From contig NZ_CP119809.1 in NCBI RefSeq assembly GCF_029338395.1, positions 496,001-560,000 on the forward strand: DNA of 64,000 nucleotides. The letters are read 5' to 3'. The notes beneath the pieces were generated by a model. It made no database searches. It was not told the DNA's origin and saw only the letters and a list, made by a program, of their open reading frames with translations. The position numbers and the translations under genes were made by a program. Shown here piece by piece: positions 685 through 61,412 of this stretch (position 1 is the first letter of the stretch; every line of letters begins with the position of its first letter). Source of the DNA: Halorussus caseinilyticus. Its GTDB lineage: Archaea; Halobacteriota; Halobacteria; Halobacteriales; Haladaptataceae.

Positions 685-1070
685 GTCCGAGTCTGAGGGG
701 ACCGACTCGGATGAAGGTACGGGAGAGTCGCCGTGGCGAACGCCCCCGCTCGCGAGCGGCCGCTTTCTCTCGCCCGAAAGTCGGATTCGGAAAGTTCGAC
801 GAGGCTTAGAGAAATATAATCCGTATTCTAAGAAAGAAAATAATTGCTCTAGAGATTGTATACAATCGTCTCGCGGTTCGGGCCGTCCGCGCGGACGCGC
901 GGACGGCCCTCCGCGGACGACCGGACGGACGAGGCGCACACGCGGCCGGGCGTGGAACGCACGCGGCCGGGCGGGACACGCACGCGGACGGAGAAAGAAA
1001 AGTTCAGACGGAGAAGGGAAAACCTTGAGTCGTGGCCGGATAAGGAATCGGACATGACCGAGGACGAACC
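685..1070. other. Intergenic region with AT-rich palindrome and GC-rich repeats
   Basis: No gene is evident in these 386 bases between two divergent genes. Positions 800-870 are strongly AT-rich and contain a perfect 14-base palindrome GATTGTATACAATC at 854-867, which looks like a regulator-binding site. It is followed at once by a very GC-rich inverted repeat (880-909) and a short 21-base imperfect tandem repeat starting at 940, 961 and 982 (ACGCGGCCGGGCG core). A TATA-like GATAAG near 1040-1045 lies about 28 bases before the ATG at 1071, fitting a leaderless start for that gene. Confidence 0.6.
880..909. repeat. 12-bp inverted repeat (hairpin)
   Basis: GGGCCGTCCGCG at 880-891 pairs perfectly with CGCGGACGGCCC at 898-909 across a six-base loop. 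It directly follows the AT-rich palindrome at 854-867. It could be a transcription terminator-like or protein-binding structure, but archaeal termination rarely needs hairpins, so its role is unknown. Confidence 0.7.
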
Positions 1071-5595: not shown

Positions 5596-5711
5596 ATGCG
5601 TCTTTAGAATAGCTTTCTCATTCCTAGAGCGTTGACTTCGTTTCCCTACCGGCGGCGTGGGACCGTCGGGGCGACGGACCTCCGGAGTGCGCTCGGCCGA
5701 CCAACCGCCGT

Positions 5712-5781
5712 GGGTGAAAGGCCCGACCGCTCGCAGTCGCGGCGCGACTGCGAGCGGTCACGCGACCGGGCGGGAGCTTTC
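5712..5781 (+). repeat. Element B, reduced copy (B4)
   Basis: Carries only the outer parts of element B: a left edge GGGTGAAAGG and a right edge GGGCGGGAGCTTTC, matching the full copies at 51435, 60199 and 61242. Between them is a different, perfect 16-bp hairpin (GACCGCTCGCAGTCGC at about 5724-5739 with its complement at 5743-5758). The flanking AACCGCCG just before it also matches the other copies. It occupies the middle of the 299-base gap after the acyl-CoA dehydrogenase; I see no gene in that gap. Confidence 0.55.
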
Positions 5782-5894
5782 TGCACCGTCGCCCTCACGA
5801 TACCCGCGGACTTCCCCGCGTTCCCGGCGATAGGAAACGCACGGCTACGCCGTCGAAATCGAAAAGAAGCGGCCGGGAATCGACTCGCGTCGAT

Positions 5895-30650: not shown

Positions 30651-30812
30651 ACCGGCGCGCGCTGGCGCGGCCTCCGTGCCGCGCCCGTCCGCGCGAGGGA
30701 CGACTGAGCGAGTGCCGGAGGCACGAGTGAAGGAGTCGGTTGGGGAGGGTGTGGTCCGCGGTTGCGGTCGCGGTGCGGTCTTCATCGGTTCAAGCCTGAC
30801 GTAGCGTCTCGG
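30651..30812 (+). repeat. Element A, copy 3
   Basis: Same block order as copies at 4131 and 9821: CGCGCGCTGG arm, copy-specific hairpin GGCGCGGC (30664-30671) with GCCGCGCC (30678-30685), CCGCGCGAGG, a second hairpin (GTGCC/GGCAC near 30712-30724 within GACT/AGTC), the core GGTTGGGGAGG, GGTCCGCGGTTGCGG, and GGTTCAAGCCTGACGTAGCG at about 30787-30806. It follows an AT-rich tract (30610-30650) that could terminate or start transcription. It fills the 403-base gap before the surface glycoprotein gene. Confidence 0.75.
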
Positions 30813-30814
30813 CG

Positions 30815-30866
30815 TCTCTTCCACCTCTCCGAAGCGGTTCTCTCTTCCACCTCTCCGAAGCGGTTC
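30815..30866 (+). repeat. 26-bp exact tandem duplication
   Basis: The 26 bases at 30815-30840 (beginning TCTCTTCCACCTCTCC) are repeated exactly at 30841-30866, just after element A copy 3. A simple local duplication with no coding content. Confidence 0.9.
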
Positions 30867-51308: not shown

Positions 51309-51434
51309 TTCTCTTTTCGTCTTTCTCCCTTTCGCTCGACTGAGTAGCGGTCGCTCTCGCCGTCGGACCATCCGACCACGTAACGGCGGCCGACCGAATC
51401 ACCGGGGTTGAGCTATCTCGTCCAGTCCACTGTG

Positions 51435-51567
51435 GGGTGGATAAAGGGGCCGCCCGCTCGCGGGCCGGAGGCCCGTGGTCGTCTCAGCGTGGCTCTATTC
51501 CGGGCGCGCAGTCCTGCGCGCCCGAAATATCCCGCGGAGCGACCGCGAGCGGGCGGGGGCTTTCGAG
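51435..51567 (+). repeat. Element B, copy 1 (structured repeat)
   Basis: Begins GGGTGGATAAAGGGG and ends GGGCGGGGGCTTTCGAG. Paired parts: outer arm CCGCCCGCTCGCG (from 51450) with CGCGAGCGGGCGG (to 51556); small side hairpin GGGCC-GGA-GGCCC; arm GGTCG (51477-51481) with CGACC (51540-51544); and a copy-specific distal arm ending in the hairpin CGGGCGCGC-AGTCCT-GCGCGCCCG (51501-51524). The same layout is seen at 60199 and 61242. It lies in the 475-base gap between sufD and the ferritin-like operon, which otherwise holds only the short leader ORF at its end. Confidence 0.75.
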
Positions 51568-51745
51568 GCGTTCGTCGCTACGAGTTCCCCGGTGTCCCGA
51601 TTCCGCCGCGGACAGGGGACTCCCGAAACGGGACTCGCCCACGAGACCGAGAGCGCAGCGAAACCATCGACGTACCCCGCGAACGACGGCGAGACCGGAG
51701 TCCGGACCAAACTTGTTAAGTCTCCCAACTCCCGACAGTGTACCA

Positions 51746-52842: not shown

Positions 52843-52946
52843 AGTCCCGTGGTGTAGTGGCCAATCATATGGGCCTTTGGACGTAGCGGGTTACGAGTCG
52901 TTACGGAAGCAAGCCCATGACGGCGGTTCGAATCCGCCCGGGACTA
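52843..52946 (+). tRNA. tRNA-Gln(TTG) with 31-nt intron
   Basis: Acceptor stem AGTCCCG (52843-52849) pairs with CGGGACT (52939-52945), discriminator A at 52946. T arm GGCGG-TTCGAAT-CCGCC at 52922-52938. Anticodon stem TGGGC (52870-52874) pairs with GCCCA (52913-52917); the loop CTTTGG is interrupted after position 37 by an intron at 52881-52911, and A38 follows at 52912. The anticodon TTG (52877-52879) reads CAA, glutamine. A 31-nt intron at 37/38 is also known in haloarchaeal tRNA-Gln(UUG) and is cut by the archaeal splicing endonuclease. CCA is not encoded. Confidence 0.93.
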
Positions 52947-59920: not shown

Positions 59921-60198
59921 GTCCGGGGGTTCGGAGTCGAGCGACAAATCCCTACTCCTTCGGCCGCGGGCGTCGGGTCGGTTCTGACTCGCGGTGGTGC
60001 GTCGCGTGGTCGGGTGGTCGTCGGCGACGGAGCGAAGGACGAGAGACTCCGGAAATAATTGTATACCAACGTCTAAGATAGAGAAAGATTTTTCTAAGCA
60101 TCATTTTTGTTGCTCGAACGCGGACCAGTAGCGCTCGGCGAACCGAACCACTGGACCGTGAGCGCCCGACCACCCACCGGCGAACGCTCGACCCGACC

Positions 60199-60368
60199 AA
60201 CCGCCGGGACGCGCCCGGCCGACCAGACCACGAGTTTGGGTGGATGAAAGGGGCCGCCCGCTGGCGGGCCGCAGGCCCGTGGTCGTCTGACCGACCCCTA
60301 TCCGGAGTGAGCGAAGCGAACGGAGGATATGTCGGTCAGCGACCGCCAGCGGGCGGGGGCTTGAAGCC
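60199..60368 (+). repeat. Element B, copy 2 (left inverted copy flanking uspA)
   Basis: Full copy: a leading small hairpin CCGGG-ACGCG-CCCGG (60204-60218), GACCAGACC, GGGTGGATGAAAGGGG, outer arm CCGCCCGCTGGCGG (60254-60267) paired with CCGCCAGCGGGCGG (60343-60356), side hairpin GGGCC-GCA-GGCCC, arm GGTCG/CGACC, copy-specific arm CTGACCGAC (60287-60295) with GTCGGTCAG (60331-60339), and a GAGCGAAGCG-type tip. Ends in GGGGGCTTGAAGCC. Nearly identical at both ends to the inverted copy at 61242-61412. Confidence 0.8.
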
Positions 60369-60379
60369 GTCGTCTCTCC

Positions 60380-60640
60380 GACTCCGACGAGGACAGAGAC
60401 GACAGCGACAGAGACGACAGGGACAGAGACGACTCCGACGACAGAGACAGCAACGACAGAGACGACTCCGACGACAGAGACGACAGGGACAGAGACGACT
60501 CCGACGACAGAGACAGCAACGACAGAGACGACTCCGACGACAGAGACAGCAACGACAGAGACGACTCCGACGACAGAGACAGCAACGACAGAGACGACAA
60601 CGACAGCGACGACAACGACAGCGACGACAGCGACCACGAC
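60380..60640 (+). repeat. 33-bp minisatellite beside element B2
   Basis: Five consecutive 33-base units begin GACTCCGACGACAGAGAC at 60431, 60464, 60497, 60530 and 60563 (the second unit differs inside), within a wider purine-rich stretch of GACGACAG/GACAACG repeats from 60380 to 60640. The unit length is a multiple of three, so long open frames cross it on both strands, but their products are monotonous and unlike proteins; I treat it as non-coding. It ends 45 bases before uspA. Confidence 0.9.
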
Positions 60641-61116: not shown

Positions 61117-61241
61117 GGGGTCCCGGCTTTTCGCTCGGGTGGGAGAGGACGGAATTGCGGTGTCGTCTCGGAAGTCTCCGTCTACTCGGTCTACACCCTG
61201 TCTACTCGCTCCGCAACTGCAGGCACCGCCGAGAAGAAGGT

Positions 61242-61412
61242 CTCGAAAGCCCCCGCCCGCTGACGGTCGCTCTGCGGGATATTCTCGCTCGCTTCGCTCG
61301 CTCGAATAGTGCCCGCAGAGACGACCACGGGCCTGCGGCCCGCCAGCGAGCGGCCCCTTTCATCCACCCAAACTCGGGGTCTGGTCGGCCGGGCACGTCC
61401 CGGCGGTTCGGC
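61242..61412 (-). repeat. Element B, copy 3 (right inverted copy flanking uspA)
   Basis: Read on the minus strand: small hairpin CCGGG-ACGTG-CCCGG, GACCAGACC, GGGTGGATGAAAGGGG, outer arm CCGCTCGCTGGCGG with CCGTCAGCGGGCGG (two G-T pairs in place of the G-C pairs of copy 2), side hairpin GGGCC-GCA-GGCCC, GGTCG/CGACC, distal arm CTCTGCGGG/CCCGCAGAG (plus-strand 61312-61320 and 61270-61278), and a GAGCGAGCGAAGCGAGCGAG tip. It fills about half of the 330-base gap between the convergent uspA and phosphate-permease genes; the rest has no gene. Confidence 0.8.

Follow-up and report, generated by a model that had tools for sequence, protein, structure and literature searches.

Three full copies of a branched palindromic repeat, element B, lie in the 64,000-nt stretch of the Halorussus caseinilyticus genome analysed here (the window), where an earlier note on this DNA had placed them, and each is matched by a covariance model. 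The plan that the note had read from them is borne out: an outer arm, a side hairpin with a 3-nt loop, a GGTCG/CGACC arm, a bulged T, a distal arm and a variable tip. The fold of copy 2 has a z-score of -4.9, and its parts are listed below with the other copies in the window.

60132..60234, + strand: 5′ flank of copy 2, made of 26-bp repeat units in tandem (CGCTCGGCCGACCAACCGCCAGCGAA type) that have diverged; it belongs to the inserted unit (pattern matches)
60235..60371, + strand: structured core of copy 2 (covariance model R1, 149 bits)
60237..60253, + strand: conserved 5′ motif TGGGTGGATGAAAGGGG; the consensus in other genera is GGGTGG(G)ACTGAAAGGGGC
60254..60265, + strand: 5′ arm of helix P1, partner 60345-60356 (pair counts)
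60266..60278, + strand: side hairpin P2, GGGCC-GCA-GGCCC, optional among copies
60281..60285, + strand: 5′ arm of P3, GGTCG, partner CGACC at 60340-60344; the bulged T is 60286
60287..60295, + strand: 5′ arm of P4, CTGACCGAC, partner 60331-60339; the helix with the strongest covariation
60299..60329, + strand: P5 (TATCC/GGATA) and the variable tip
60331..60344, + strand: 3′ arm of P4, GTCGGTCAG, followed by the 3′ arm of P3, CGACC
60345..60356, + strand: 3′ arm of P1, GCCAGCGGGCGG
60357..60362, + strand: conserved 3′ motif GGGCTT (GGGGGCTTTC in most copies), whose CTT is able to pair with AAG at 60248-60250
60363..60640, + strand: 3′ flank of copy 2, whose last part is a tandem array of 33-bp units
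61238..61372, - strand: structured core of copy 3 (152 bits)
51431..51571, + strand: structured core of copy 1 (113 bits), distal arm imperfect, within an insertion missing from 15 relatives
51380..51700, + strand: approximate extent of the lineage-specific insertion that bears copy 1, between a SufBD-family gene and the next gene
5690..5788, + strand: reduced copy, with an exact unit of the 26-bp repeat (5690-5707), a P1-like hairpin and GGGAGCTTTC
731..778, - strand: P1 alone, perhaps another reduced copy (27.5 bits, E 6e-5)

Although the plan is common to all three full copies, in copy 1 the distal arm is damaged, with several non-standard pairs. On inspection, the note's description of the compensatory arm exchanges between copies and of the G-T wobbles in copy 3 holds. 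The blocks that it took to be single-stranded and fixed do hold conserved motifs, but the AAAG and CTTT at their edges are able to pair (P0), and the lengths of these two tracts tend to shorten together (Fisher p=0.009, a modest signal from a crude parser). The reduced copy was located at 5709-5788, with the exact repeat unit 5′ of it, but its structure score is weak (27 bits).

The helices P1, P2, P3, the bulged T, P4 and P5 were taken as first proposed and pairs were then counted over copies. Among 19 copies from this genome (mean column identity 78%), 97.8% of the paired cells are standard, 12 of the 36 pairs are changed on both sides and 56 cells are compensatory; standard pairs fall to 34-44% when the partners are slid by 1-3 columns, and none of 500 shuffles reached the covariation score. 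With 91 copies, both-side changes are found in 20 of the 36 pairs and compensatory cells number 294. In an alignment of copies from other genera (A5) they are found in 31 of the 36, with 94.2% of cells paired against 26-45% in the slid controls, a percentage that leans towards structure because A5 was fitted to the model structure; P1 sequences in A5 such as CACGCCGCTGGC/GCCAGCGGCGTG lie outside the training set of the model. Over all three alignments 94-98% of cells are paired compared with 26-47% in slid controls, the cells not being independent events. What is kept in other families is a frame, GGGTGG(G)ACTGAAAGGGGC, TGGTCG, CCTATC...GATATGTC, GCGACCGC and GGGGCTTTC; the sequences of P1 and P4 are replaced there, with pairing intact.

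The interior of the element is exchangeable. A recognisable P1 was found in 90 of 107 copies, in which P1 and its interior span 30-283 bp; P2 is sometimes absent, extra hairpin modules occur between P1 and P1′ or in the P4/P5 tip, one such module lies within the 5′ motif (L329) and some copies consist of P1 only. One hairpin-pair module (GTCTGCGG..CGCAGAC CTCGGAAGTCGCACGCCCGC..GAGCAGGAACGTCTTCCGG) occupies varying positions inside the element at L026 and L027 (C1:463907 and C1:472364), L019, L024 and L139 and is also found inside a second dispersed repeat, so that it looks like a separate mobile hairpin. That second structured repeat, at 30652-30815 (+) in the window, has the form GGCGCGCGCTGG..GCGCGAGGGATGA..TCGGTTGGGGAGG..GCGGTTGCGGTGCGG with the tail TCAAGCCTG; it is widespread in Halorussus, with further loci at L183, L190, L136, L044, L053, L056, L057 and L059, and in some loci it stands directly 5′ of element B. 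In genus g26 (L334, L336, L339, L340, L361) an inverted copy of the 5′ motif stands ahead of it (GCCCCTTTCAGTCC ... GGACTGAAAGGGGC), which gives a second hairpin upstream of the core.

The conserved unit proved to be larger than the hairpin. One to several tandem 26-bp units precede the core, and the 26-bp repeat has 138 genome matches at two or fewer mismatches, compared with 0 for the reversed pattern; downstream are units of ~60-66 bp that repeat the P1′ end together with GGGGGCTTTC. By eye, both flanking repeats are more alike within than between loci and therefore look like local tandem duplications. Arrays of flanking repeats that have no palindrome also exist (L308, L313, L328), as expected if the palindrome is deleted across the hairpin or if such sites have not yet been filled. 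The 33-bp tandem array (GACAGAGACGACTCCGACGACAGAGACAGCAAC) at 60392-60628 lies immediately 3′ of copy 2, and several other copies are followed by GACTCC/GACAGAGAC arrays like it. Protein coding from an ATG in the 5′ motif was rejected, since this codon varies between ATG, ACG and ATA from copy to copy and single-base differences in length occur.

Three copies, the number given in the earlier note, is far too low for the genome, in which model R1 finds 113. The main contig (C1) carries 102 of the 107 mapped copies, above the expectation from its length (p=4e-6). Among congeners the copy number is 0 (G018), 1 (G016), 7, 10 and up to at least 118 (G021), all of these being lower bounds. A DNA pattern shared by many copies was found in Halorussus, Haladaptatus and another halophilic archaeon, and a covariance-model search of haloarchaea, a step the note had suggested, matched 66 of 195 genomes and 20 of 66 genera of the order with an E of at most 1e-6; one matching group is Haloarcula, recognised via plasmid records. 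Pattern scans of viral contigs gave no element B. The element corresponds to no known RNA family in Rfam: the scan of the window returns a tRNA alone, and permissive scans of the loci in this genome and in relatives return only chance-level matches. The tRNA gene, at 52843-52946 (+), is not called by ARAGORN and, at 104 nt, probably contains an intron. A literature search on haloarchaeal palindromic repeats and Halorussus repeats found only work on Haloquadratum. Somewhat more probably than not, element B represents a family of structured palindromic repeats, hitherto undescribed and spread across the haloarchaea, that are non-autonomous and conserve their fold.

Comparison with related genomes, which the note had seen as a way to recognise a mobile repeat, showed lineage-specific insertions with matching empty sites, as such a repeat would leave. 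The site of copy 1 (51435) is empty in all 15 relatives compared, with the conserved gene anchors 161-270 bp apart as against 512 bp here. In G024, which is ~90% identical in a shared gene and was compared over a 400-kb stretch, five sites that hold the element in our genome are empty (547431, which is copy 1, 571422, 727009, 755664 and 826959). The gap at 571422 is 10 bp in G024 and 276 bp in our genome, and that at 727009 is 84 bp as against 686 bp, a difference that also takes in a long 3′ repeat array; two further sites in G024 hold the element in a clearly different version. The empty sites examined are plain intergenic spaces in the relatives, and the flanking repeats were inserted along with the core. 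Taken together, the insertion data speak for a dispersed mobile repeat and against a regulatory RNA tied to particular genes.

These results also bear on the possibility that the palindrome is a regulatory DNA site or insulator, a cruciform or protein-binding site in cis upstream of genes with a REP/BIME-like role, spread by ectopic gene conversion. Such a site would suit the chromosomal enrichment and intergenic placement, the near-identical cores with differing flanks that lie within 7 kb of one another (L006-L008), and the orientation of the downstream gene, which has the same sense as the element in 85 of 126 cases (85 vs 41, p=1e-4). However, the flanks insert along with the core, and because the element is absent at orthologous sites no given gene can require it as a regulator; we regard this account as improbable.

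No consistent target-site duplication was seen at the G024 junctions, which are blurred at 90% identity, and since no transposase, target-site duplication or sharp ends were found for element B, its mobility is deduced from between-species insertion differences alone. The Y1 transposase domain (Y1_Tnp, PF01797) has 0 matches in this genome, control genomes being positive, and a reverse transcriptase (RVT_1) was found in 0 of 18 Halorussus genomes. The genome has eight TnpB genes, none flanked by a full element; a model search of nine TnpB loci gave matches of at most 25 bits, all minimal P1 hairpins, and at the one locus inspected (L034) the right end is unrelated, a minimal P1 lying past it. 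With no Y1, no RVT_1 and different TnpB ends, REP/RAYT, IS605/PATE and retrotransposition are not supported. A retrotransposed RNA repeat was accordingly rejected, there being no RVT_1 in the genus, as was a TnpB omegaRNA or PATE, there being no Y1_Tnp in the genome and no full element at the TnpB loci. Palindrome-associated repeats of this kind are abundant in Haloquadratum (PMC3119063) and Y1 enzymes act on hairpins, yet 113 copies in a genome devoid of any Y1_Tnp match make it highly unlikely that the element is an IS200/IS605-derived repeat (PATE or REP) or a TnpB omegaRNA end moved by a Y1 (HUH) transposase.

The earlier note had left two readings, a folded RNA and a palindromic transposable repeat. 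The chromosomal copies favour the second; the first is weakened but alive. Selection on a one-strand transcript should make G-U variants exceed A-C variants, and these are equally common in Halorussus (57 vs 54 cells among the copies of this genome, 25 vs 19 in relatives), so that no signal of a one-strand RNA is seen there. In the A5 alignment G-U exceeds A-C (67 vs 25 cells), a count that still includes inherited columns. The chromosomal copies show no promoter signature, upstream TATA-like words being present in 10% overall and in 0 of 14 at convergent sites. Of 75 copies between co-directional genes, 54 are oriented in the sense direction (72%, 54 vs 21, p=2e-4); this count and that of the downstream genes rest on heuristic gene calls (acidic composition, GC3). 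Together with the conservation of unpaired motifs across genera, the sense bias suggests that the element is under a constraint beyond what pure selfishness would require of a palindrome.

A structured non-coding RNA, transcribed by read-through in Halorussus or from its own promoter on plasmids, with the copies as dispersed RNA genes or as a 3′/5′ UTR element, could draw on that bias, on the very strong covariation and the unpaired motifs conserved across many genera, on the G-U excess in A5 before inherited columns are removed and on a promoter-like box found on Haloarcula plasmids (below). The chromosomal copies speak against it: they have neither a G-U excess nor upstream promoters in Halorussus, their sites are not conserved between species and nested insertions would break a precise RNA. 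A copy number that ranges from 0 to more than 100 means that the chromosomal copies are not essential. We judge such an RNA rather unlikely, though it is the strongest of the competing accounts.

The covariation could also have arisen in the absence of function. Two-sided changes (294 cells, direct C-G/G-C exchanges included) far exceed one-sided ones (57 G-U and 54 A-C), and replication template switching, or quasipalindrome correction, is known to yield paired two-sided changes (PMC8794818). That this process alone pairs the arms of old, immobile repeats is, in our view, very unlikely, as it leaves unexplained the empty sites, the differences in copy number and the conservation of unpaired motifs across families.

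On plasmids the element keeps different company. In Haloarcula it occurs with an OB-fold gene on pNG500, pHH126, CBA1115 unnamed4, H. pelagica unnamed2 and JP-L23 unnamed2, as a single-copy domain ~480-620 bp from the start of the divergent gene; on JP-L23 unnamed3 the element is present and the OB-fold gene is not in the stretch shown. The C-terminal part of the protein, which is annotated as 'SOSS complex subunit B family' in three of these Haloarcula plasmids, matches RPA/SSB OB folds. At five Haloarcula plasmid loci a conserved TTAG(T/C)ATATAAA box lies ~300-400 bp upstream of the element and points into it. Homologous OB-fold genes adjoin the element in Haladaptatus-type loci and on a plasmid contig of our own genome (C5, 57631-58515); there a highly conserved region of ~400 nt is followed by a frame like that of element B with another interior, the frame being present, by eye, in 14 of 23 aligned loci. 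The ~400-nt region is itself a hairpin-rich non-coding sequence (L390; L372-L401), divergent from the RPA-like OB-fold gene on Halorussus and Haladaptatus-type plasmids; its consensus fold has 64 pairs, with 98% of cells paired and 14 pairs changed on both sides, and Rfam gives no match to it. On the Haloarcula plasmids (L366-L370), ~450-500 bp 3′ of the element, a conserved GTCAGTCCCAC is perfectly complementary to the element's motif GTGGGACTGA, a possible long-range pairing.

With this context, element B may have originated as an RNA. It may belong, as one domain, to a structured RNA or an origin region carried by plasmids, loci from which the chromosomal copies would descend. More specifically, and with a probability well short of even, a large structured non-coding RNA (~0.5-0.6 kb) of a new class could have element B as its 3′ domain. 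This RNA would act together with the divergent RPA-like OB-fold protein in the replication or maintenance of haloarchaeal plasmids, and its hairpin domain would have escaped and multiplied as a mobile, module-swapping chromosomal repeat.

Among known systems, the SMR-A and SMR-B repeats of Haloquadratum walsbyi are short and non-coding, with prominent inverted repeats, many copies, nesting of element in element, no known mobiliser and no target duplication seen (PMC3119063), properties that element B shares; at ~110 bp, SMR-A is also similar in size to the ~130-bp core of element B, which likewise has inverted ends and is dispersed. However, identity among SMR copies is commonly >95%, and the near-terminal palindromes of IS605/PATE elements serve as targets of SMR-A (PMC3119063), whereas copies of element B have a mean column identity of 78%, with covarying stems, and the empty sites examined are plain intergenic spaces. 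Unlike the SMRs, the element extends over many genera and is not found in TnpB elements. PATEs and IS605-type ends are likewise non-coding, palindromic and dispersed in haloarchaeal genomes, but PATEs have palindromes near both termini and no terminal inverted repeats (PMC3119063), in contrast to the one central branched palindrome that spans the core of element B. Unlike IS605-type elements, element B occurs in a genome that lacks a Y1 transposase, and it is absent from the inspected TnpB right end. Bacterial REP/BIME repeats with their RAYT are intergenic, chromosomal, palindromic and gene-oriented and number ~100 copies, as does element B, which differs from them in length, motifs and covariation pattern and in the lack of a RAYT (Y1) protein in its genome. 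As it fails the defining features of SMR-A, PATE, REP and TnpB ends, we file it under none of these.

Yeast mitochondrial GC clusters (PMC4478555) and the repetitive hairpin-forming elements of sponges (PMC2800124) spread with no known transposase and are similar to element B in being GC-rich or hairpin-forming, scattered and subject to fast turnover; the yeast clusters, like element B, merge and shuffle palindromic modules (PMC4478555). Unlike either, element B resides on an archaeal chromosome, has a larger branched fold and unpaired motifs kept across families, and has a plasmid locus with an RPA-like gene. The closest known systems in behaviour are the Haloquadratum SMRs, the mitochondrial GC clusters and the repetitive hairpin elements.

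On balance we favour, by a modest degree of confidence, a reading in which element B in Halorussus is a non-coding, non-autonomous, mobile palindromic repeat. A unit of ~220-330 bp, made up of the 5′ 26-bp repeats, the folded core and the 3′ repeats, would enter intergenic spaces of the main chromosome, where it would take in smaller hairpin modules and, at some sites, appears to lose its palindrome. The folded single strand would be the recognised object, and putative trans-acting machinery would copy or insert the hairpin. The frame of GGGTGG(G)ACTGAAAGGGGC, P1, exchangeable interior hairpins, P1′ and GGGGCTTTC stays constant, and within it the two sides of the stems change in step, the arms probably being held complementary by arm-to-arm template switching at replication and by selection for a mobilisable hairpin. 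The plasmid loci beside the RPA-like OB-fold gene are the likely source or parent context.

On this reading, Archaea too have GC-rich hairpins of the type familiar mainly from mitochondria, which spread, nest and change in sequence yet keep their fold, with no recognised transposase. Since a single genome can hold more than 100 copies and the order as a whole many more, one can ask directly how much of the apparent RNA covariation comes from template switching on DNA palindromes at replication and how much from selection on RNA, and the plasmid RPA-like protein is a concrete candidate partner of the element. If true, the plasmid-RNA reading would mean that in Archaea part of an RNA has become a mobile element.
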